NCBI GenBank assembly: GCA_963669155.1
Contig: OZ022584.1
Location: 18,363,271 to 18,427,270 of the forward strand
Direction: 5' to 3'
From: Arbacia lixula
Lineage: Eukaryota; Echinodermata; Echinoidea; Arbacioida; Arbaciidae
Length of the DNA stretch: 64,000 nucleotides
Shown here in pieces: positions 37,196 through 61,700 of this stretch. Made by a program: the position numbers and the translations under genes. The notes beneath the pieces were generated by a model, which was not told the origin of the DNA, searched no databases, and saw only the letters and a program-made list of their open reading frames with translations. The stretch's first letter is position 1. Each line of letters opens with the position of its first letter.

Positions 37196-40100
37196 ATGGC
37201 AGACCGAAAAGGGAACAGCCCTCCTCCTTTATTACTATGTTCGACCAACGATAGCATAAGTCCAGGCATTTTCCGACCAGTACCAGCGACAGCGTCATTG
37301 TTTCCGACAGGTGAAATGTGTTTTACTGTAATTCCATGGCCAGAATTGAAAAAACTCCTTGTATTTGATCGTGACCTCCCATTTTGTGGTAGTCTTCAGT
37401 CCCGTGCGCTAAAGTTTGTGTCTGTAAATTTACTCTCGATCATCGATGCAATCCGGTCGTGATTGAAACATAGCAAAATTTCTTAGATTGTTATGATGTC
37501 CGTCAAAAAAATTACACCGCCGGAGAAAATTAAAAAAGCATAATTCACATATATATGTCTTTTGATAACTTGGAAGATTGTGAAACAAACTGAACAGCAC
37601 TGACAGAAATTAGAAAAAAAGCCTCAATTTTGATCACATAGTCATAAACACATGATAGAATAGTCATTTATGGTGCAAATTTTCTCTCTCTATACAGAAG
37701 AAGATGGAGAAGCCGACAGCTTTCTGGGGCAGACGGACCCCCCTGACCTGGGTCCCCCTGATCTAGGCCCCCCTCCCACCCAGCCTGCATCCACGTCAAC
37801 GTTCTCATACTTTCAGCAACCGCAGCACCCTACCTCTGGTCCCCCTCCATCAGACCCCTTTGCAGGGATCTCTGGGGCCAGCCAGTCCCCTTTCCCCTCC
37901 CAGCCATCCCTCTCCTCTGGCCCTGCGTCCATCCCAACATTCACGCCAAATCAGTTTTCAACACCGCCGCCACCATCGCACCCCGTCGCTGCTCCGCCTA
38001 GTCTTACTCCGCAGGCCAGGACGGTACATTTTCCAGATGACCCTGTCACAGGTACACAATTCCCAACCCAAAGAAATCAATAATAATTTTAAAAAATTAA
38101 AAAAAATGTGCTGCATCAAATTTTGATTAAAGCAAAATCACTCAACAACATACAAAAGCAGACCTGTGCAAGTTTAAACAAAATTAGACAAAAAAAAGTT
38201 ATGAGTTTTCCGAAAATCAAAATCGAAAGATGTACTACAGATTTCTATGTTTATATTACATTGTGTCCAAGGTTGACAAACTACAATAATAATAAACTGT
38301 AACTGCACAAGAAAGCTGTTATAAAATAATATATGTAATTGTAGTAACCAAATGCATATTAAAGGTGATCTTGATTAGGAGATAATTTCCTAATCTCTAC
38401 AGTTATCTCCATACAACATCACCAAAACCTGGGGTGTGTCTCTATAATGTTGATATGCATTACCAAATAAACATTTGTTTGTCAGGGCTACTTTTTAAGC
38501 CTGACTTAATGATGCAATGACACTGAGCCATGGTGTGTTCAATACCCTATGAGTTGAAAATGCTTTTAGCAATAGTTCTCTTATTAGTTATGGGGGCTTA
38601 TTTGTTTGCATTTTTTCACTAGGTATTACTTGGCACGATAGAGACACTGCACCTTAAAGTTACAACTCTCTGAAGATTTTTTTTTTTTTTTGCTCAATCA
38701 TGTTTCAAATTTCATTGTTCTGTTTTCCTTTCCTTGTTCCATACCCTATGAGTCAAAAATGTTTCAGCAGTAGTTCCATTTTTTGACTGGGTAGTACCCA
38801 TGATGGATGCCTTTCAACTCCCTGATGAGAACATTTTTTTGCCGAGTCATGTTTCTATTTAAATTCATTGTCCCTTTTTCTGTCCTACTTCCAGCTCCAG
38901 CTCCCCCACCCCCATCCAGCTACTCCGCCTCTGGGCCCCCTCCCACTGGCCCCCCACCCGCTGGACCGGGTGCCCCTAGATTCGGCATCAAGAACTACCA
39001 GCACAAGCCCATGGGGCACCCTATTGGGGGAGTCACCCCCGCCAGTGGCCCCCTCCCACCAGGCATCATGGCACCCCCTCCCAAGTTGCAGGTTAGTGGG
39101 TTTTGTAGAATTAACCATTTTTGTGAGGTATTCACAAGCTATCCCCTAACTGCACAGTAATGTGATATTTCATTTGTCTGTATTTCGTAATTCAATTTCA
39201 ATGGGTGGAACACACTCTTCATTTATCAGTTGTTACTACTTGGACAAACCTTGGACAATCTTTGGGGTTAGTAATAGTTATGTATTGTTTGAATGCTGTG
39301 AATAAAATTAGCATACATAACGGAAATGGTCTATTGAAGAGAAACACATTTCTTGCAGGGGATCAAATCCAAAACAAAAGTTGATTTGGATACAAATAGA
39401 CAAATCAGATATTTGCCTACTACAAGAAAGCTACCGGTGTGCGTTTTTAAACTCATGCTCTCTCCTCCTAAATCCTGATCAATTTCCATCTTAGGTTATA
39501 TCGGCCATTGTCAGAATTAGTACATGGGCTTGTTAGTGTTCTTGTATTTTTTTCCAGTTTCTGATCTAATCTAGGAACCAGAAATATCTTTGACATATTT
39601 TTTTTTTTATTGTCTTTCCCTTCTGTGTCCCAGCACTCAATACTTTGTATATGGGGTAAGTCATCTAGGCTTTAGGAATCTTTTGATCATAGAAATCATG
39701 AACCATGTCAGTAAAAACCGTCACAAGGACTATTGTTTTGCTAGATATGTGTGTGCTGATGAGACTGAGAAAGTTAAAGGGATAGTTCATCCTGAAATTA
39801 TGTTGGTTTCAATAAAAGCAGAAATATGACAGAAACATATTAGGTAATGTTTGATAAAAATCTGTCAAAGGATAACAAAGTTATGACTTTTTAAAAATTT
39901 GATTTTATGACATCATGTGCATGGTGCTCTCCCTTATGTCGTGTGCTGTATGATTTCATATATTCCCCTTTTATCTGTAATTGACAACGGAATAATATTT
40001 GTCATGGATGTATGTGTGTAAAAACATATTTCTAATGATGCAGCAAATGCATAGATAAAAGAATGCATATCTTTTTTGAGAGAAAGAATATTTTAAAAAA

Positions 40101-43100
40101 AAATTGTACAGAAAATATGGGAGAGCACCTTGCATGTGACGTCACAAAATCAGAGCTTTAAAAGATCTTAACTTTCTTATCCTTGGATGAATTTTTCATC
40201 AAACATTCACTAGTATGTTTCTTTCATGTGTCTGCTTCTATTGAAACCAACTTGATTTCAGGGTGAACTATCCCTTTAATTATCAGTACCTGTGTGCTCT
40301 TTCAGCAGTATGATGCTTCAAGACCCCCGCCCACAGCTGCGGAGGTGCAGCAGGTCAGCCAGTCCCCCCTGCCTGTTGTGGGCGGGAGCGGGGGTTACTA
40401 CCACCCCATCCAGCCCCACTGGTTCTACTGCAAGGAGATGGAGAAGAGGAGTATCTGGGTCCCCTTCAGCATCATTGACTCCATCAAGCTGGAGGAGGCG
40501 CTTCTTAGAGGTGAGACTAGCTTCCCTCTTCACGGCAGTGTTGTATCCGAGGCTGGCTCAGTCGAGACCGAGACCGAGGCACGGCTCTTCAAGACCTAGA
40601 CCGAGACCACTCAAAAAAAAAAAAAAATGGCATGTGTATTTTTCACCTTTCAAATAAAATTGCCTCAAGGCATACAACACTGCTTCCCAGAGGAGGCCAC
40701 GGTCTGCACCCATGAGATCTTGAGAACCTATAGCTTGCCGTGAAAGGACCTACCAGTTCACTGACACACATTATCAAGTTATAGATTGCCACAACTGGGA
40801 TGCGGAATGAGCTGTTTTTGTGATGTAATCACAACAATTCCCCTAAGTGCATACTAATGCGGTAATATATTCACCGGTATTTCATGATTAAGTTTCAATG
40901 GGTGGAACGTACTATACGAATCTATAAGTTATTGCTACTCGGACAAACCTCATGCAAGCTTTAGAGTTACCATTTATAACATATTGTTTGAACGACATGC
41001 ATAAAGTTTGTTTGCATAAAGAAAATGGTCTATTGGCGTGTCCTATTTTGACATCCACTCCAGGTGGACGTGATGCAATCGCGCATGGTATGTGTCAAAT
41101 TGCTAAGAGCAGCAGTCAATTTCAACATCCTCTATTAATGACCCTGAACTTGTGACATACCTCACCTGACCAACTTTTTACTGCTTTAGTGGACATACAA
41201 AACTAGAACTTTAATCCACACTCCTCCTTTATGCTTGATTGCATGAATGGTCATTAGCTTTTATTGCTTTGAAAAAAGGACAACTGAGCCGTGGGGTTGT
41301 GATGTCACAGAACCAATTTTCTGCTATTGTTTTGCATGCCTAGATAACTTTTTGTTTCCCCCTCTTTAAAACTGATGTCCATATGTTTTTACCCATTTTT
41401 ATTGACAGCCTTCTGTCCGGTCAGTGTGTAAAAGATGAATGTTTAATTTTGTCCTTCCAGCACGAAACACAGAGGGCGACATTGTGCTGTCCACCAATGG
41501 AGGGCGCTATGACGTCAGTCTGTCAAGTCGGCTGAGGTATGCTATCTACTGGGATGAGCAGCCGTCGCCCGTCAGACGCTGCACGTGGTTTTACAAGAGC
41601 GACAGCGAGAACCGCTTCATCCCCTATGAGGAAGCGATGGCAAATATGCTGGAGGTTTGAAAATCAGAGTTGTGTTTTATATGATTATAAAAATATTGTA
41701 ATATGTACTTAAGTTGATTGTATTCCTCCAGCTTCTCTGAAGACATACATTTGACTCAGTTGAGTTTGCTGTTTTGAGGACTAATGTTAACATCTCTGTA
41801 ACCCCGTTCATATACACCGCCTATCCGCGAAAAAGGCGCAACATTTGCGGCAATTTTGCCGATGCATTACCGATAGCTGCGTATATGAACGGGAATCGCT
41901 CAAATAATGCGGTATTTGCTTCCTCCTTTTTTGCGCTTATTTTGCGGCTTTTTCGCGGATCGAGACCTAGTAATAATACCGCAATATTGCGGTAAGCGAA
42001 TCTTATAAATTGCGTCCGCAAAATAGGCGTAAATGTTGCGCCTTTTGCATCGCACTCTGGCATGTGGGTCGCTAATCCTACCGCTCGTATGGCTGAGCGG
42101 AGCATGTCACCATTGGTTTGGAGAGAGTCCAGCTGTCCAAAACACCGCAACATTACGGCTTTTGGGGGTGTATATGAACGGTGCTTTTGCGGCTCGCTGG
42201 AAACTTGCTTACCGATGTTCATCCGTAATAATAGCGGTATATGGTATATGAACGGGGCTTGTGATGGAAATATATGTTTAACAAAAATGAAAATATTTGT
42301 TTATATCTTTCATCAAATCTCGGTACTTTCATTACTATTTCCTGGAAGTTGTTATTAAGGTTACTTAAAGGGTACTTACATACTTTAAGTATGTGTACCT
42401 TTCTGTGAAATTGCCCCTGTTTAAACCTGCACTTGTTCTTGATCCTTGATAGGAGGAGTTCCGAACAGCATCCATGCAGAACCAGTGGCACCGGCGGCTG
42501 GAGCTGTCCGATGGAGAGACCATCATCATGCACAACGCCTCCGTCATCGTCCACTTCCGCCCCTCCACCCGCCCCGACGAGTGGGGGGCGTCGCCAGACA
42601 CCCAGATGAGGCCCCGTGTGGTGAAGAGGGGGGTGGATGATATCGACAGCATCCCAGAGGGTAAGGATAGAAAGAATGAGTGGATGAATGAAAAGTGGGC
42701 GTTGCCCAATACCCAGATGAGGCCTCGTGTGGTGAAGAGGGGCGTGGATGAAATCGACAGCATCCCTGAGGGTAAGCATAGGAAGAATGAGTGGATGAAT
42801 GAAAAGTGGGCGTTGCCCAATACCCAGATGAGGCCTCGTGTGGTGAAGAGGGGCGTGGATGAAATCGACAGCATCCCTGAGGGTAAGCATAGGAAGAATG
42901 AGTGGATGAATGAAAAGTGGGCGTTGCCCAATACCCAGATGAGGCCTCGTGTAGTGAATAGGGGTGTGGATGAAATCGACAGCATCCCTGAGGATAAGGA
43001 AATGATGAATGAATGGTGGGCGTTGCCCAATACCCAGATGAGGCCCTGCATGGAAAAAAGGGGTGTGGATGTTATGGACAGCATTCCAGAGGGTAAGGAA

Positions 43101-46100
43101 ATGATGAATGAATGGTGGGCGTTGCCCAATACCCAGATGTGGCCCTGCATGGTAAAAAGGGGCATGCATGTTATTGACAGCATTCCAGAGGGTAAGGACA
43201 GGTTGAATGAGTTAAATGAATTGTGGGCGTCGCATGCCACTCAAATATGGAACATTGAAAGAAACATGTGAAGAAGCACAATAATACGAGGAAGATGAAA
43301 CTGTGCTAGAAGCAATACTTCGCTAGATATGCTACTTATAGTAAATGTTAACGTGACAATAAATTCATCTGCCCTTTATAAGTACTGGCATTGTAATGTT
43401 AAGTAAAGCAATGAACATTTGTTATTGGTGGATCTAATGGTAAACCACATTAAAAGCAGTGTGTGAAATGAAGGATTAAGAAGATGTGAAGAGAATGCCT
43501 GCCAGTTAATTCATTATGCCTCCCCACGAAGTGGCCGGAGGCATTATTTTCAATTTATTTTAATTCAATGCATAAAGACATACATAAACAAAGACTACAA
43601 TAGTTATTACAAATCCATATACAGGACACAAATAGAAAAAATGTAATTATAGAATAAAAGACAAATCTGTCAAAGTATTTCTACATGTAAGGTGAACGTG
43701 TTGTAATATATTTTCATGTTGTGTTGACAGGAGAACCAAGCAAAGTGGACCATCTCGTCTTCGTCATCCATGGTATTGGTCCGGTTTGTGACCTGAGGTT
43801 TAGAACCATCACGGAATGCGGTAAGTATATTATCCCTCCATACCCATGTTAAATGGTGAAAAAATCCACAAAAGGTTTGTTAAGGGTTAACATCCATAGG
43901 TGTTTCATGTAGATAAGCAGTGCAAGCATTTTATTATGGTGATCATTACATTGGTGCAAGGGAGGGAGGATAGAAATGACTTTGTAGATCGGGTTTGCTA
44001 TTTTCCTCCCATTTTTCCCAGCTAGTGCACAGTATGTTCATTAATTTACCCTACTATTCTTTATACACAAATTTAACTTTATATTTCCAGAGCCATTAGG
44101 ACCGTAATGTTGTTGAGAGTCTGAACACTGCTTAGTATGCACTTATATATAATTCAGTTCTCCAGAGGAAATCAAGGGCACAAAATGGAAACTTACTAGC
44201 AGATGTTTTCAAGCACAATGTGGGTTCTGAATTTTGTGCTGCATAGTACAGGGATCTGCATGGTAAATCATCAGTTGTTGTAGCCAAATGTCATTGGACA
44301 GGATTCAATCTCTGCAAAGACTCGTAGGATCCAGTCATGGGATTTGTGCTAGGAGGTGACAAAACATTTCCAGTCGTCTCTATTTGTTGTAAAACATCTT
44401 ATTTTCTATCTATGAATGAATAGAATCACCTGTAAATGATTATTTCACCATTGATGTTTCATGTTCTTGAAATCTTCCTTTCAGTGGATGACTTCAGATC
44501 ACTGTCCCTGGGCTTGATGTCTTCTCACTTCAAGCAAGCTCAGGACGAAGGGAGAGCGGGGCGGGTGGAGTTCCTGCCCGTGTACTGGTACGCAGCCCTG
44601 CATGGTGATGCCACAGGAGTAGACAGGTAAGTGGGCAGCATATGAAGTCATACAGAGGTTTACTACTCCTGTAGCATTAGTGCGAGATTGCACCAGCAAA
44701 TATATTGGAGCTCTGTTGATTCTGTTTATTGGAAGTTCATCTTGCAATGAAAGGATAAACCATAAAGACTCCATTGCATGATTAAAAACATAACATATTA
44801 CCACAGGTTCAGAAGTCATGTCATCATTAATTGGAGAATAGCGAGCTTTCGTTTTGAGGATGGGCGTACTCAAGAACGGTAATTCCATACCAAGATCGAT
44901 CTGCACATGCGCCACCCCCCCCCCCCCCGTATCGCTGCGCAAGGAATCGAGAACGGGAATTCTGAGATCTTTTGTTCTCAATGATTGAGGACAGCAGCCA
45001 ATCAGCGCCCCAGCTGATGTCAGTGCAAATTGCATGTGCGTGCAGGGGATCAGATGATGCACCGCCGCTCACGTTCTCTGTCTTATTTTGCAAAACTGTG
45101 TGTGAATACCACGGACGGACGGCTAGAACAGATTGCTCACTGTTCTCGTTTTCGTCCGCGGTGTCATAACAAAAGCTCCCTAATGTATGCCAAGTGAAGT
45201 CGAGAGAGAAAGAAGAAATCGTTTGAGAGGTGGAGTTAGTTCTATAATGAAGTAGACATTCCTTCCATTCTCATTCGAATGCAGCTTTAATACTAGTTCA
45301 TGATGTAGCAAGATTCTGAGCCGTCTCGATTCACAAGTTTCACTATGTTTTTTTAATCCTGTTATCACTCTGTCGTTCCCTTTCGTCCAATCGCCAGACG
45401 GCTGAAGCGCATCACCCTTCCCAGCATCACCCGGCTGCGTAACTTCACCAACGAGACGCTGCTGGACATTCTGTTCTACACCAGCCCCATCTACGCCCAG
45501 CAGATCGCAGAGGTCGTCTGCAACGAGGTCAATCGCCTCTACCACAAGTTCCAGGAGAGGAACCCAGAGTTCTTTGGCCAGGTCTCGCTTATCGGCCACA
45601 GCTTAGGTTGGTTCTTGCTCCTCATTCATCCAGGGATTAATAGGAGATAACAATACGTGTGTTAAATGTTCTTTGAATGTTTCCATGGTGAGAGTGTACT
45701 AATAAATACTATTTAGAAAATAGCAAAACTTTCGGTAACACCATGTGGTTGTATTCTTTCGGATAATTGGCCCACTTATGGGGTGAAGAAGGGAAAGGAA
45801 AGTGAAAAGTGAAGAAAGGAGAGGTGAATTTTTTATATTTTATAACACTTACACAAGACTATTTTTTTTTTTTTTTTTTAGCTTTAGTTTTCGGTGTTTT
45901 AAACCGTAAATAAATAAATAAATAAATATGTGTGTTCTTAGCAAACAGAATGATGTTTCGGAAAAAGTACCTCAAAGAGGAGTTGATTATTTCCATTGGA
46001 TTCTGAATCCATATGATTTATCCTACCCTCCTAAAGAAATGATATGATTTGAAAGACACACAAAACATGATATTAACCTGAATTTGAAACTCTAACACTA

Positions 46101-47990: not shown

Positions 47991-49661
47991 CTTCTTCTCC
48001 CCCACACACATTTTTACCTCTCACACCCCCTCCCTCTCACTTCTTATTTCTCTCTATCTATATTTTACTCTCTATCTCTGTGTCTCTCCACTCATCTGTC
48101 GTTATGTTTGGTTGTTGTGACCTTTGACCCATCAGCTGATGTGCAGCCCTGATGACCTGAAGGAGATGGGGATTCCCCTGGGACCCAGGAAGAAGCTTGG
48201 AGGTTTTCTCAAGGAGCTGGCTGCCAAGGAGGTAGAACTCATTCAAATTAATTTTCTTTATTTCTTTAGTCATTCACAATAATGCTAATATGATATGTTG
48301 TCATATATATATGATGCTCTCTTCCTTATCAGCCTCACAGGTATAAGGTCATTGTTTTGAATTTATCTTTTATTTCATCCATAAAATGCATAAATATATA
48401 CATTCAGAAAGATATTAAATTACACTTTATGACACAAACTAAAACGAACAATGATTTATTTTTTAAATACAATTTACAAAGAAAAATTTCAGGCAAAAAA
48501 GAATAAGATTGCAGTAGATTGGGGTTATATAGGGCAGTTGATGACTTATCTAAATATTATTTCAATCAGATGTATTTAACAAGTTATCTTTGAGCCTGGC
48601 TTTGAAGGTCTCTTGGCAAGAGACATCACAGATGTTGATGGGTAAACTATTTCCTTGAAGCAACAGAAATGGAAGATTACGATAGCGGATATGTGTTTGT
48701 GGGCCAGGGCCCTGTCTCATAAAGAATTGCGTTTGATCGCAACTTGACTTGCAATTGATATCAATCTTAACTCTGTATATTAGATGAATTGATTCAGATC
48801 AATCGTAATTCTTTATGTGACGGTACCCAGAGTTACATATGAACTCATGCCACACGACGGACTCATTGATGTCTATTTGTGACCTCTTCCATCAGGCAAA
48901 GATGGTGGACTCTGCCAATCAGAGGGAGCAAGAGTTAGCTGCGCAGAAAGCCAGAGAGGAGGAGGAGGAGGAGAGGAGGAGGAGGAGAGAAGAACAGGAG
49001 CAGAGTGTTTCCATGGTAACTGGCCCCTCCCATCGAGGCCTTCACAACGCCATGTCGGTTCATGTGGACTACGAGCCAGGCTTAGAAGGTGAGCGCGATG
49101 CTTCATCGTAAATTAGACCATTCAGCTATGATAAAAACTAAAACACTTTCCTTTTGTAGTTGTCATTTCTCAAACTGGAAACTTAAAGCACCATTTTAAA
49201 ACAAAGTGCATTTATTTGAAGCAGAGGTCAGAATCCTTGCTGATATATTTCTCCTATGAGTAAATGTAATTTTGAAACCTGACTGGAAGTAAAATATGGT
49301 GGGTAAAAAACTATACAGTATATAAGAACGTGTATTATTTAAGTGTTTTTCCTGATTTACATGCATCCAGTGAGTGCCTATTATAATTTTAAGGTCTTTC
49401 GCCTCTATTTGAGAGCAATGTGATATATGAAAACAAATATTATTTTTCGCTTTTCTTTTCCTCCCCCTTCATCAGGTGTTGGCCAGCCGTTTGTGGAATA
49501 CCCGCAGCTAGACTTCCAGCCCTCCTGCTTCTTTGCCCTGGGCTCTCCCATCGGCATGTTCCTCACCATCAGGGGGGTGGGGCGGGTCGGGGAGAACTAC
49601 CAGCTACCAACCTGCCCATCAGTCTTCAACATCTTCCATCCGGTAAGTAGAGAGAGAAGGG

Positions 49662-49733
<72 letters not shown>

Positions 49734-49812
49734 AAGAAAGAGAAAGAAAGAGAGAGAGAGAGAGTGAGAGAGAGAGAGAGAGAGGGGCGAGAGAGAGAGA
49801 GAAAGAGAGAGA

Positions 49813-49869
<57 letters not shown>

Positions 49870-52712
49870 AGGGAGGGAGGAGAGGGGGAGGGGGAGAGAG
49901 AAGGGGGGGGGAGGGGGGGAGGGGAAAGGGGGTATGGTCCTCACTATCATGGCAAGGGAAGATTCAGGAAGAGATACCAACCTGTCCATCAGTGTTCAAT
50001 ATTTTCCTTATTCCCTTTTACCCTAACATTCTCCCTATCCTCCACTTCTACCCTCTGCTCTTTCAGTTTGACCCGGTGGCCTACCGGATTGAGCCCCTGA
50101 TCCACCCGACACTGACCGAGGTCAAGCCTGTTCTCATGCCTCATCACAAGGGCAGAAAACGCCTCCATCTAGGTGAGTCACGCAGCCAGATGGGCACGTT
50201 CACACGGACGCAGTTTGCTCTACTAAGGGCAATCCTATGAGGTCGTTCACATGGTCTCTCCAGTTATATCTCATTGTTTACAATGTGTAGTTGGGTAAAG
50301 TAGTTTTGTGCAAATTGAAAATTAACACCATTAATTGGTGTTACAGCTCAGAGCAGCATGAAAGTCTGTCTCACTTTCGCTCGCACCAAGAGCAGCCTGA
50401 TCCATGAATGGAGGGATATTTTCATCATCATGGTTGAATTTTTATATTATCTTATTTTCCCAAGGAGCTGGATACCAGATATGTTGTACCCCAGAGCTGC
50501 AAGAGAGCTTGTCTCACTTTTGGTCTGACCTCAACCACTCCCTGATTGAATAATAGAGGGATGTTCAAACTTGTTATTGTTTACATTATTAGAGATATAT
50601 CACTATCTATATGTTGTACCCCAGAGCTGCGAGAGAGCTTGTCTCACTTTTGGTCTGACCTCTACCGCTCCCTGATTGAATGCTAGAGGGATGTTAAAAC
50701 TTGTTATTGTTTACGTTATTAGAGATATATCACTATCTATATGTTGTACCCCAGAGCTGAGAGAGAGCTTGTCCCACTTCGGATCTGACCTCAAGCGCTC
50801 CCTGATCGAGTCCATGAAGAAGACCTGGGCCACCCTGCACCAGTTTGCCCTCGCACACCGCACGCCGGAACAAGCCGAGGGGGAGAATGCCGACCCTAAC
50901 ACTGTCACCGACGAGCAGATGGAGGCGGTTGCCGAGCAACTAAGCAAGCAGCAGCTGGCCAATCAGGAGGCTGAGATGGAGGGGCAGAGCAGAGTCCGGG
51001 GTGAGTGTGTGTACAGAGTTATGTAATCCCTATCAGGAATGAGTTCCTTCCAATGTACACTCACTGAGGAGCAAATTTTTTCTGGGCTGCAAAGCTCAAA
51101 TATCATTGATTATTTAAAGATAGTGTTAAGTTAGCATTTATGAGTATTCCAAAACCATGAACTTGTCTACACAAAGCAATGTGCTGTTTTCTGAATGTAC
51201 TCACTCCCCCCTAACTGCATAGTTACCCGTTCTAACATTCTCCTGTATCTGGCGATTCAGTTTCAACGGGTGCAATAGTCATTGGGATAGAAGTGCTCAT
51301 GGTTTGCTTTCACACTGTAAAAATATTCCAGCGACCTTGGAGAAAATACCCATAGCTTTGAGAAAGTACCTACTAAATAACTGATATTTTTTATCATGGA
51401 TATTACAAGAAATTTGCTTTCACATGAGTGAAATAACAGGTATTTTCAGGTCGGGGGAGAGTACTCAATCAGAAAATACCAGCCATTTTTTTTTCTGAAA
51501 ACACCTATTGATTTGCTGTTGTTTTGATGTGGGTGAGAATTGTGATTTATAATTTGCTTCTTGTGATCCTCTTCTTACCTAGATGAGAACCTGAGACTGG
51601 GCCAGCTGAATGGGGGCAAGCGAATTGACTATGTGCTGCAGGAGGCACCCTTTGAGAGCTTCAACGAGTACCTGTTTGCCATGAGCAGCCATGCTTGCTA
51701 CTGGTAAGACATCCTTCTCGATCTTTTTCTCTTCCTCTTCCTCCTTGTTTTCTTTCCTTTAATGAGCACCTGTGTGCCATGAGCAACCATGCTTGCTACT
51801 GGTAGAACATCCTCAACGTTCTTTTCCTTACGTTCTTTTCTCCTTTTCTCTTCCTCCTTCTTTTCCCTCTTTTAATGAGTACTTCTTTGCCAAGATCAGC
51901 AATGCTTGCTACTGGTAAAACATCCTTGATGTTCTTTTCGTCCTCTTGTTCTCCTTTTCTCTTTCTCCTTGTTTTCTTTCCTTCAGTGAACACCTGTTTG
52001 TCAATAGCACCAAGCTCATCCTCTTTCTCTTCTTCCTCCTCCCTCTTCTCTCTCTCTCACTCTTCCCTTTCCTCATCCTTTTTTCTTCTCCCATTCCTTT
52101 CCCATACTCATTTTCTTCCTCCTTTTCTTCCTCTTCCATTTCTTCTGTCCCCTCCGCTCCTTCTACTCATTCTTATTTCTTCCATTTATTTTTTTTTTCC
52201 CTTCATACATTTAAGTACTCTTTGTTATCTTCTTGTCTCTTCTGATTATCATGAGCCTCTGTTGCAATTTCAATTGAATTATTACACAGTATTTTACTCA
52301 TTCCTCTTCATTTTATACTTCAAATAATCTTCTGTAAATTTACAAATTTGTTTCATAAAGTACTTCCAATCAAATATTACATAATGTCAACATTTCTTAA
52401 AAGGAAAGATCAAAATGTAAAATGAATTCAAATCCTAACTTCAGTCACATCAAAACTGTAAGTGTGTCAGCAAAAGGAAGATCTAAAAAAAAAAACAAGC
52501 TAATAGTCAATTGGCTGTTTTTAAAGAAATTGGAGGAATGATTTGACTTCAATAACAAAAATGGTATTTCCTCGTATTTGTCCAATTTTCCCAGGGAATC
52601 TGAAGACACTGTTCTCATGGTACTGAAGGAGGTCTACAGCCACCTGGGGATATTCTCTCAATTAACGGGACCACGGCTAGACTCCACCCCCAGCACCCCT
52701 CTTAGATATTAG
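37196..52712 (+). CDS. SEC23IP: SEC23-interacting protein p125 (complete, 17 coding exons, 1019 aa)
   Basis: DDHD-family protein that binds SEC23 and lipids at ER exit sites, in COPII transport. Exons: 37196-37310, 37698-38051, 38895-39091, 40306-40510, 41461-41654, 42453-42660, 43731-43820, 44485-44626, 45398-45606, 46855-47153, 48136-48231, 48896-49088, 49476-49642, 50067-50172, 50755-51000, 51583-51703, 52595-52712. All GT-AG and in frame; 1019 aa against 1000 in human. Order: MADRKGN start and DSFLGQTD; Pro-rich SEC23-binding region (to ~260); WWE-type region ([30 protein letters not shown], ~265-355); [19 protein letters not shown]; lipase-like GHSLG (Ser ~570); SAM (~637-703, [16 protein letters not shown]); Glu/Arg coiled stretch; DDHD (~770-1005, [50 protein letters not shown]). 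The exon 6, 15 and 16 boundaries carry tandem duplications (separate entries). Confidence 0.97.
38533..38894. repeat. Tandem duplication of the 3' part of SEC23IP intron 2
   Basis: Two copies (about 38533-38736 and 38737-38894) share ATACCCTATGAGT, AGCA.TAGTTC, CAACTC.CTGA.GA, a T run, TCATGTTTC and a final pyrimidine tract. The second copy carries the real exon 3 acceptor; the first lacks the AG. Confidence 0.65.
39140..39333 (+). repeat. Dispersed repeat, copy 2 (SEC23IP intron 3)
   Basis: Contains TTCAATTTCAATGGGTGGAA, CAGTTGTTACTACTTGG, CAAACCTTGGACAATCTTTG and AATGGTCTATTG, as in copy 1 (18530-18690, minus) and copy 3 (40838-41037). Confidence 0.75.
39774..40279. mobile_element. TTAA MITE family 1, copy B (full, palindromic)
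   Basis: Begins TTAAAGGGATAGTTCATCC and ends GGGTGAACTATCCCTTTAA: long imperfect inverted repeats with TTAA at both ends, about 506 bp, no coding. It includes TGACGTCACAAAATC. It ends 27 bp before SEC23IP exon 4 (40306). Confidence 0.9.
40536..40682. mobile_element. Short TIR element beside SEC23IP exon 4
   Basis: CAGTGTTGTATCC at the left and GGCATACAACACTG at the right are inverted repeats. Flanking octamers CTTCACGG and CTTCCCAG are similar, suggesting an 8-bp (hAT-type) target duplication. It starts 25 bp after the exon 4 donor. Confidence 0.65.
40838..41037 (+). repeat. Dispersed repeat, copy 3 (SEC23IP intron 4)
   Basis: Shares TTTCAATGGGTGGAACGTAC, TATTGCTACTCGGACAAACC and GAAAATGGTCTATTGG with copies 1 and 2. 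Confidence 0.75.
41802..42257. mobile_element. TIR element of about 456 bp in SEC23IP intron 5
   Basis: Starts CCCCGTTCATATACACCGC and ends GCGGTATATGGTATATGAACGGGG. Motifs such as TATATGAACGG and GCGGTA recur internally in both orientations, so the two halves are largely palindromic. It is CpG-rich compared with the intron. Overlapping open frames in this stretch have no protein character. Confidence 0.85.
42576..43260 (+). repeat. In-frame tandem duplication of the SEC23IP exon 6 end and splice donor
   Basis: The exon 6 end (coding [18 protein letters not shown] to IPEG) plus the first ~26 nt of the intron is repeated with periods 111, 111, 111, 99 and 99 bp; a seventh, partial unit lacks a donor. 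Donors sit at 42661, 42772, 42883, 43093 and 43192; in the fourth unit the GT at 42994 has become AT. All units are multiples of three and the frame stays open from exon 6 to TGA at 43269-43271. The next exon (43731) can therefore join any donor in phase 1, adding 37, 74, 144 or 177 residues. The first donor gives the family-normal protein. A translated unit contains [20 protein letters not shown] then a short charged linker. Confidence 0.9.
46436..46817. mobile_element. TTAA MITE family 1, copy C
   Basis: In SEC23IP intron 9. The left end GTGATAGTACACCCTGAAG and the right end AAGGTGAACTATTCATTAAA are degraded forms of the family ends. It shares AAACATATTAGTGAAGGTT and contains TGACGTCA. It ends about 40 bp before exon 10. 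Confidence 0.8.
47936..47988. repeat. (CT)n microsatellite in SEC23IP intron 10
   Basis: A nearly pure CT run inside a larger pyrimidine-rich stretch (47730-48090) upstream of the exon 11 acceptor. Confidence 0.9.
48706..48830. mobile_element. Short inverted-repeat element in SEC23IP intron 11
   Basis: GGGCCCTGTCTCATAAAGAA at the left and TTCTTTATGTGACGGTACCC at the right, with ATCGCAACTTGACTTGCAAT and GATCAATCGTAATT inside. About 125 bp; ends about 65 bp before exon 12. Related to 25388-25715. Confidence 0.6.
49650..49925. repeat. (GA)n purine tract in SEC23IP intron 13
   Basis: About 275 bp of GA repeats with AAAG and GGGA variants, starting within 10 bp of the exon 13 donor. The long Arg/Glu and Ser/Leu open frames over it are not genes. 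Confidence 0.95.
50343..50815 (+). repeat. Tandem duplication of the SEC23IP exon 15 acceptor (decayed upstream copies)
   Basis: The block TATGTTGTACCCCAG followed by exon 15 start sequence occurs with AG ends at 50494, 50624 and 50754, exactly 130 bp apart; only the last is the real exon. A more divergent copy starts near 50343. The two closer copies keep the acceptor and about 55 bp of exon-like sequence, but each meets an in-frame stop (TAA, TAG) after CTGATTGAA, so using them would truncate the protein. Confidence 0.85.
51655..52010 (+). repeat. Tandem duplication of the SEC23IP exon 16 end and donor
   Basis: The exon 16 end (GAGTACCTGTTTGCCATGAG to GCTTGCTACTG) with its donor at 51704 recurs with potential donors at 51802 (GTAGAA) and 51915 (GTAAAA). 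A fourth trace (GAACACCTGTTTGTC) lies near 51988. Each unit carries pyrimidine-rich intron sequence. Reading past the first donor gives an immediate TAA in frame, so the copies are intronic relics. Confidence 0.85.
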
Positions 52713-58743: not shown

Positions 58744-61700
58744 TCACGCTACGAGTGAGCGGCCAGTCATTTCTGAGGGGATCTCCAGTCCCATAAGCCT
58801 GAGCACAGTGGGCGCCACGTCCTGGAGAGATGCATTGTGGGAAGGGTCGACGGTGAACCTCTCTCCCGAGTTGCACATGATGAAAGGGACTGTAAAGAAA
58901 TGAAGAAGGGATGGGTTGGATTATTAGTACTATTTGTGTACTTTGTAAGGAATGATAAAACTACTACAACATGTATAAAGAATAAATGACGCTTTCATAA
59001 CGCACACATATCTATAATAACAGAAATTGAATGAGGAAAATAAACGCATCAACAACTGAGAAAACACTCCAGGAGCTGTGTAAGATTTGCGACAAAAACA
59101 TACAAAAAAAAAAAAGCAGCAGTTCACACATAAATTTGGCAAAGGAGTTAAAAACAACTGTCTCCTTAGTATTCTCTGTAATCATTAAAGAAGAATACAT
59201 CCCTCAAAAAAGCAAATTAAAGAAAATAGAAGCAAAAAATGTTCTGTAACAAAGTTAGAACTTTTTGAATATTGTAATCACTCGATAGGCCCAATGACTT
59301 CTTGGGAGGATTTGTCATTTTCCTCTAATCCACGCTTACTGGTAAGTAAATTTGGTAATACAAGATTCAGCATTTGTGATTAAAACATTTTGCACAACTT
59401 CCCTCAAACTTTTAACAATTTGCTTCGATGATTATTCTGCTTTGATAGAAATGGCCCATAGGTTTATTTTATTTTAATAACCCATGTCAATTTGAAAAAA
59501 TTAGTGATCACATGACCCTTAAACGTAAAACACATCACTAAATTCCAAATATGGATTCATCTGGTGCTGAACTTGACGCTCTTTCATGTGATGAATCTTT
59601 CATCATTTTTAGTAATTGATATCACAAGTTAGAACCCTAAACCACATCTTTCTGGTACTGGGTCACTAATGGATTAAAGGAATAGTTCACCCTAAAATTG
59701 TTTTTGTTTCACATATTAGTGAAGGTTTGATGAAAATCTGTCAAAGAATAAGAAAATTATTATCTATCAAAGTTTTGATTTTGTGATGTCATGTGCGAGG
59801 TGCTCTTCCATATATGTGGTGCACAATTTTTTTTTGAAAGTGTGCATTTTCTCAAAAAAATATGCATCCTTGAAGCTGTACATTTGATACATCATTAGAA
59901 ATTCGTTCTTGCACACAAACCTGTATGGAAAAAAAATATTCTGTTGCCAAAAAAGAGAAGAAGGGCAATTCATGTAATTATATTCTACCCAACATATGGG
60001 AGAGCACCTCGCACGTGACGTCACAAAATAAATCTAATAACTCTCTTTTCCTTTGACTGGTTTTCGTCAAACCTTCACTTATATGTTTCTTTCATGTTTC
60101 TGCTTTTATTGAAACCAACTTATCTTCAGGGTGAACTATCCCTTTAAAGGTCATATATTGTACTGGGAAGACAAAAAAGCCTTCAAATGGTGATCGTGAG
60201 TAATCTTCTTGCCAATGGTCTTAAATGATTGTATTGTCCATTTTAGAGCCTTGCTGAAGGTTATTTGCCCTCATATGATCCACAATTGGAATAATTAGTC
60301 ATTAAATCACAAATCCTCAAATTGTTTGGACCGAACATTTGGAGGATCTGTGATTAAATCACTAATCTCTCCAAATGTGGATCATTTGAGGGCAAATAAA
60401 TTTCAGCAAGGTTCTAAAATGGACAAAACATGAATTTAAGACCATTGGCAAGAAGATTGCTCACGATCACCATTTGAAGGCTTTTTGTCTTCCCAGTACA
60501 GTATAAGCCCTTTAAGACACACACACATCTCTGGCTTATATATTCTACCTCTCATCGTTGTGTGCTTGGTGCTAGGGCCACCGTCAGGGGCTAGCATGAT
60601 CTCTGCGTTGCCATGGTCCGCCGTTACTAGGAAGGCATAGCCACTCTCCATACATGCCATCTTCATTGTGTTGATAGCAGCATCTGAAATAAAAGGGTAT
60701 ACATGTGGTTATATTGATATTGATTTTTTGTTAGTGACCTTCACATGTGAATCCATTAGTAAATTCCATTACAGTGTAATAATTCATGAAGCTTCTGGCA
60801 GAAAAGACATTGTTGGTTGACATGTGTGATGCACAATGGGCATCGTTGTGTGCTGAATTAATTATCTGACAAAACTCACTAAATATTGCAAAAATATTAA
60901 CAAATCAAATTTCACAAAACATGTTTTTAAAACTCTTGACATCTTTTCATTTTATGATATGTAAATTTCAGCTTCATTTGATTTCTTACTTTTCTGTTAT
61001 TCATTTTCAGATTAATCAATCCATCTGCTTAGTACCAATAAAACAAAGACGATTCAATCATGACATTACCTGTGTATTGGCATGCCTTGACGGTAGCGTC
61101 ATAAACTCCAGTGTGACCAACCATGTCGGGAGGGGCAAGGTTGCACATGACAAAGGGGTAGCGGTTTGTCTTCACAACTTCAGCCACCTACAACAACAAC
61201 AAAAAAATATTTTTCAGTTTAGAAACAAAAACAAAAGCTTAAAACTGTCCTGGGTAAGTGTTACAAAATGTGCAATAACATTTAATGGAATAGAGTGTAT
61301 GTTAATTATAAGAGCTTTTTGTGGGTTATGAATTGCTTTTCACTCATGTGTACTGATATTGAACCATATTTTGCTTTTTGTAAATCATCATATCCCTGCA
61401 GGTGGCAGAATTTATTTCGCTTCAAGCCCCTGTCCTGGGTTCTATTTAACTTCTTTATTTGTATATGTTGCTGTTTGTTGAATGAAATAAAGAAGAACAA
61501 ATAAAACCAAAAAAGAAAAACAAATTTTTTCATGTATTTCTTCGCTCTATAAATTACCTAGGAATATCATCATGAAACAAAGCTATTAGGACCAAATGGT
61601 TATTTTTTTCTGCTAATTAAGTTCTTACTAAGTGCTTGTTACAAAATAGCTGCGCACTGGAAAACAGTGAGAAGGTTATCATTATTGGGTGCAGTTTGCA

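Follow-up and report, generated by a model that had tools for sequence, protein, structure and literature searches.

An exon end repeated in tandem with its 5' splice site in a SEC23IP/DDHD2-type gene of Arbacia lixula: a possible in-frame ladder of alternative donors

Tandem repeats that include a splice boundary are a known kind of sequence element, as exemplified by the CBS and ABCA7 genes. According to the available portions of the respective reports, CBS contains a 31-bp variable number tandem repeat (VNTR), c.1444_1467+7(16_21), that is present in 16-21 copies and varies between people (PMC2630376), while the donor in the second unit of a 25-bp VNTR in intron 18 of ABCA7 is used in human RNA, which leads to retention of 25 bp and a shift of the reading frame (PMC5954066). 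In human UBC, tandem dual-specific splice sites with the sequence AGGT act as both donor and acceptor between the coding monomers (PMC10809524, as far as the accessible text describes it). Here we report on a further array of this kind in the echinoid Arbacia lixula, where the end of an exon of a SEC23IP/DDHD2-type gene is repeated together with its 5' splice site. The array lies in a stretch of 64,000 nucleotides, referred to as the window (assembly GCA_963669155.1, contig OZ022584.1, positions 18,363,271 to 18,427,270 of the forward strand), on a chromosome-size contig of the single 607-Mb assembly that was examined. All coordinates refer to the window and, unless stated otherwise, to its plus strand.

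The native exon (42453..42660), as delineated by a match to PF23464, the acceptor TGATAG/GAGGAG and translation, starts in phase 0, ends in phase 1, and encodes the end of a WWE_3 domain and the linker to a lipase-type domain. Its terminus reads GAGG/GTAAGG (the slash marks the splice boundary). This exon end, the 5' splice site and the start of the intron are repeated in tandem with spacings of 111, 111, 111, 99 and 99 bp, so that six donor positions start at 42661, 42772, 42883, 42994, 43093 and 43192; in every case GAGG lies immediately before the donor dinucleotide and AAG immediately after it. Every tandem unit includes the exon's own 5' splice site, as in a splice-boundary VNTR, with GT retained in five units and AT in its place at 42994. 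The repeats are arranged head to tail and consist of a linker of 36 or 24 bp plus an exon end of about 75 bp. Specifically, the copied units are found at 42661..42771 (after donor 1, GTAAGG, 111 bp), 42772..42882 (after donor 2, GTAAGC, 111 bp, with the same exon part as the preceding unit), 42883..42993 (after donor 3, GTAAGC, 111 bp), 42994..43092 (after the AT at position 4, 99 bp) and 43093..43191 (after donor 5, GTAAGG, 99 bp). They are followed at 43192..43260 by donor 6, its linker and a partial, decayed seventh unit (about 43226-43260). Tandem Repeats Finder reported the array at 42586-43212 with a period of 111, 5.9 copies and a score of 757, which is far above chance. The next exon (43731..43820, 90 nt), which all donors join in phase 1, has its own donor, GTAAGT, at 43821.

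Translation in three frames revealed that the frame set by the exon start at 42453 remains open throughout the array, including the linkers of intron origin, and that its first stop is a TGA at 43269..43271, past the last donor; both other frames contain many stops. All five spacings are multiples of three, and the differences in linker length, of 12 nt and 3 nt, preserve the frame. When the six exon ends were joined to 43731, all joins were in phase 1 and were translated without stops. The resulting exons measure 208, 319, 430, 541, 640 and 739 nt, the 541-nt form requiring the AT donor, and the five GT donors would add 0, 37, 74, 144 or 177 residues. The original prediction, which had been made from the DNA letters without database searches, gave the donor positions, the 111- and 99-bp periods and the AT at 42994 exactly to the base; its statements that the frame is open, that every donor joins 43731 in the same phase and that these numbers of residues would be added likewise held when checked by translation and by calculation of exon lengths. 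The array as it was described is therefore confirmed to be real.

The DNA, WWE_3 and DDHD searches of the assembly score the best candidates only. Among these, the array was found at one place in the 607 Mb, and no other locus, haplotig or paralogue that differed in copy number was found. Tandem repeats are prone to assembly errors and a single assembly was at hand, but the view that the array is an assembly artefact is barely credible, as neighbouring units of like size differ by 2, 3 and 7 bases and so do not represent one sequence read repeatedly, and as only one place was found. The anatomy of the array, its open frame, the phase of its donors and its presence at one locus are thus directly established.

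The assignment of the host gene is based on two domains. A WWE_3 (PF23464) match with an E-value of 1.4e-40 extends over three stretches, passes the cut-off and ends in the exon at 42453-42660, and exons encoding a DDHD domain (PF02862) are located downstream of the array on the same strand (about 49508-51713). These matches support a SEC23IP/DDHD2-type PA-PLA1 gene, which is the type that had originally been proposed. WWE_3 was found once in the assembly, and further DDHD matches were on contigs C2 and C8. No relative with a solved structure was found for the exon pair at E-values up to 1. SEC23IP is set apart from DDHD2 by a proline-rich N-terminus that binds Sec23; unassigned proline-rich open frames occur upstream at 37664-38083 and 38804-39160.

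On balance, we are inclined to interpret the array as a splice-boundary minisatellite that acts as an in-frame ladder of alternative donors. The last 75 or so exon bases, the 5' splice site and about 36 intron bases would have been duplicated in tandem, and the duplicated stretch would then have expanded, probably via unequal exchange, leaving several nearly equal donors that face the one acceptor at 43731. We infer that more than one of the donors is used in splicing, and the choice among them would depend on exon length and the balance between serine/arginine-rich (SR) proteins and heterogeneous nuclear ribonucleoproteins (hnRNP). Transcripts would then differ in how many in-frame copies they carry of a 33-37-residue segment between the WWE_3 and lipase-type domains. 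The added residues would most likely be a tolerated, loosely constrained spacer and not a regulated switch. A precedent for this use of extra donors is provided by the donor in the second ABCA7 unit, which is used in human RNA.

The predicted strengths of the donors are consistent with such a ladder. All five GT donors have kept AGG/GTAAG, and their predicted pairing energies with U1 are -8.9 or -9.4 kcal/mol and thus lie within 0.5 kcal/mol of each other; the corresponding values are -6.3 for the AT site, -5.0 for the preceding exon's presumed donor and -10.4 for the donor of the following exon. With the five GT donors nearly equal in predicted strength, the choice between them would hinge on position and regulators, and SRSF1 is described as favouring intron-proximal donors and hnRNP A1 intron-distal ones (PMC5585400, in the part of that report that was available). 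The same data bear on a different explanation, namely a fixed coding extension, in which the last donor at 43192 is constitutive, the inner donors remain unused within the exon and the protein contains a repeat of 177 residues. In line with this, the open frame closes shortly past the last GT donor. However, donor 1 matches donor 6 in U1 pairing and yields an ordinary exon of 208 nt as opposed to one of 739 nt, and we regard a fixed extension as improbable.

Reportedly, introns can be gained through tandem genomic duplication (PMC4974935, PMC3443670). We also considered whether units of the array might be removed as small introns, either by intron gain or through dual-specific (AG/GT) sites. 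Indeed, every copied unit contains CCCAG and all but one have a GT donor. However, all eight candidate acceptors within the units that passed a simple pyrimidine filter are in phase 0, as are the acceptors at CCCAG, whereas the donors are in phase 1, so that the frame would be lost if a unit were excised as a small intron. Moreover, the unit border reads AGGGTAAG and not AGGT, and an acceptor cut after the AG at this position would be in phase 0. Internal mini-introns and a dual-specific ladder of the UBC type are ruled out on these grounds, and the in-phase acceptor that intron gain by tandem duplication would need was absent among the candidates within the units (0/8). This explanation is largely refuted by phase, and we give it practically no weight.

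The divergence between the units provides information on the age of the array. Unit 1 and units 2-4 differ from units 5-6 by about 0.40-0.55 synonymous and 0.10-0.14 non-synonymous differences per site, and the exon parts of units 2 and 3 are identical. The high synonymous divergence between these subfamilies points to an array that is old as a whole, with some recent turnover and only some young units. This rules out the recent origin of the entire array that the original prediction had suggested. The decayed seventh unit matches the native exon at 19 of 32 positions and the copies at 16-17, which is a weak hint that units 2-6 may form one group of copies.

The original prediction had also raised the possibility of selection on the copies and proposed a test of non-synonymous against synonymous change (omega) between the units. 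We used a codon model with 24 exon-derived codons in which the branch of the native exon had a separate omega. The omega of the copies was 0.274, which differs from 1 with a likelihood ratio of 6.9 (p-value of 0.009), and none of 132 neutral-copy simulations gave a value as low as this. With the linkers included, omega was 0.336 (p-value of 0.011), and it was 0.14 on the older branches of the unit tree. This last value would also suit a fixed coding extension, but the apparent relaxation of units 5 and 6 is at odds with it. The proposed selection is thus supported on the simplest tree but fades under another grouping of branches, as considered below. Altogether, these values argue for coding constraint on the copies at a moderate level.

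The array is not the only one of its kind in this gene, where three further exon edges are duplicated in the form of two arrays, neither of which keeps the frame, and one intronic copy of an exon end; the original prediction had not pointed these out. The second array (50479..50809) consists of three copies, with a period of 130, of a 3' splice site together with the adjoining intron end and exon start, the exon starts being at 50495, 50625 and 50755 (native). In-frame stops (TAA/TAG) interrupt both upstream copies, between which there are 3 non-synonymous and 0 synonymous changes; a candidate fourth, more diverged copy is located near 50346. The third array (51659..52016) repeats the end of a DDHD exon with its donor and the intron start, with donors at 51704 (native), 51802 and 51915 and spacings of 98 and 113. 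The intronic copy (49972..50007) reproduces the exon end at 49602-49637 within the following intron with 31/36 identical positions (score of 47, compared to 24 for the best of 300 shuffles), and is located past a long AG microsatellite. Elsewhere in the window, a minus-strand exon at 60436-60708 resembles a cofactor-independent phosphoglycerate mutase, with a Pfam metalloenzyme match just below the cut-off.

Splice-site repeats also occur elsewhere in the genome, of which we sampled 20 stretches of 10 kb (200 kb in total), 14 at arbitrary places and 6 around other DDHD genes. The sample holds 12 arrays with a period of at least 60 (13 rows, with two overlapping ones merged). Ten of these were read in part by translation, which showed that 3 bear the splice site of the adjoining exon, while none was visible in 7. 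In the window, all 3 arrays with a period of at least 60 carry a splice site of the SEC23IP/DDHD2-type gene. Apart from these arrays, a plainer self-comparison yielded 9 other direct-repeat rows in the window, which do not enter this count of 3, and 75 rows in the 20 sampled stretches. An excess of arrays over splice sites relative to chance is suggested by these counts, and no more than suggested, since tandem repeats are common in this genome and the choice of 6 among the 20 stretches was guided by nearby DDHD genes.

Among the sampled stretches, L026 contains on its minus strand (L026:4327-4952) an array of the end of an exon and its donor in the TRAP1 gene, so named after the top PDB match of its product (mitochondrial HSP75, E-value of 1.8e-13). 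Its four donors are spaced at 151, 157 and 157 bp, and nine stops interrupt the frame. In L014 (6102-6713), a 67-bp repeat has the 3' splice site motif TTTG(A/T)TTACAG in each of the seven listed copies, the last copy providing the acceptor for a PITPNM-type exon (LNS2_PITM1-3, E-value of 6.5e-9); this repeat is a possible acceptor ladder. On the minus strand of L020 (about 740-1170), a donor-like ladder of 33-34 bp starts at the end of a GC-rich open exon (GC content of 0.65 versus 0.38 after the exon), with GT(A/G)AGT in 5 of the 7 sites listed, and the exon frame stops at the second unit. The exon is without a Pfam match, and its protein is reminiscent of an Otx N-terminus. Two side observations were made in the same sample. 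A similar 160-bp repeat (..TTGACCTTTGACCTCTGACC..), probably a dispersed element, is present on two contigs (L016:6670-7394 and L026:3590-3990). The mitochondrial contig C590 (15,740 bp, L010) carries COX1, which gives the expected residues, such as NIAHAG and INFITTI, with mitochondrial genetic code 9 but not with code 5; this speaks for a probable echinoderm origin.

Several of these observations weigh against the donor ladder. The use of more than one donor is a prediction from the DNA. The selection signal is concentrated in the long stem leading to units 5-6: when this stem was grouped with the native exon, omega rose to 0.44 (p-value of 0.29), and with both stems so grouped it was 0.57 (p-value of 0.45); with only the other stem so grouped it was 0.32 (p-value of 0.05). 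On the tip branches of units 5 and 6, constraint appears relaxed, with an omega of about 1.4 (p-value for the tip difference of 0.046 on the exon part and 0.075 with the linkers). Furthermore, other splice-site arrays of the genome carry stops or lose the frame, which implies that such arrays arise without evident coding use. The main alternative is an inert intronic minisatellite, in which splicing proceeds from donor 42661 alone and the frame has stayed open as an exon-derived relic and by chance. The stops in the TRAP1 array and in the 3' splice-site array of the SEC23IP/DDHD2-type gene are in its favour, as is the early stop in the L020 ladder despite a period of 33-34. The same is true for the non-rejection of neutrality once the stem of units 5-6 is counted as native, and for the finding that the second ABCA7 donor appears in just about 2% of transcripts (PMC5954066; this value depends on an interpretation of the figure order in the available portion). 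On the other hand, the divisibility of every spacing by three, the 531 bp free of stops and the omega of 0.27 on the simplest tree speak against an inert repeat. We therefore consider it an unlikely explanation, if one to be taken seriously, and retain the in-frame donor ladder as the preferred reading.

The recurrence of splice-site repeats within one genome was unexpected. As a tentative and broader proposal, this genome may repeatedly grow tandem repeats over splice sites, which would supply spare donors and acceptors. Most of these would decay, while arrays that are open and have a period in multiples of three would meet coding selection and turn intron into protein of variable length. If this is true, the array of the SEC23IP/DDHD2-type gene would represent a case caught in the act, for which the decayed arrays of TRAP1 and of this gene itself are built-in controls. 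In any event, the genome offers a natural comparison, as it holds several splice-site arrays of which one is open and others have decayed.

Compared with the described systems, to the extent that the available portions of their reports allow, the array resembles that of CBS, whose unit also crosses from the end of an exon into the intron, of which it includes the first 7 bases (24 + 7 = 31, as interpreted from the coordinates), each unit having a splice boundary; however, the CBS unit is short, at 31 bp, and not a multiple of three. The ABCA7 array likewise begins at a donor, which forms the first two bases of the unit, but this unit lacks an exon end and its 25-bp shift leads to a premature stop. 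In both genes, the unit length (31 and 25 bp, respectively) means that the frame is shifted when one additional unit is used. UBC also has a splice site in each tandem repeat and protein lengths that rise in frame-keeping steps, but here the border sequence differs and the search for in-phase acceptors found none. In intron gain by tandem duplication, sequence that bears splice signals is likewise copied in tandem, but no new intron is predicted here, since the internal candidate acceptors do not have the phase required. The architectures of Culex dsx (PMC4461909) and of a Schistosoma mucin (PMC2576457), as outlined in the available parts of these reports, differ from the present one. In the open-licence literature on precedents, donor choice and the gene, which was covered in part, no frame-keeping ladder consisting of donors only was found. 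Thus, while the kind of element is known from CBS and ABCA7, what appears to be new is a donor-only ladder in which all spacings keep the frame and the intron-derived linker is open. Such a ladder would show the conversion of intron into protein in graded steps, with its donors, phases and units all readable.

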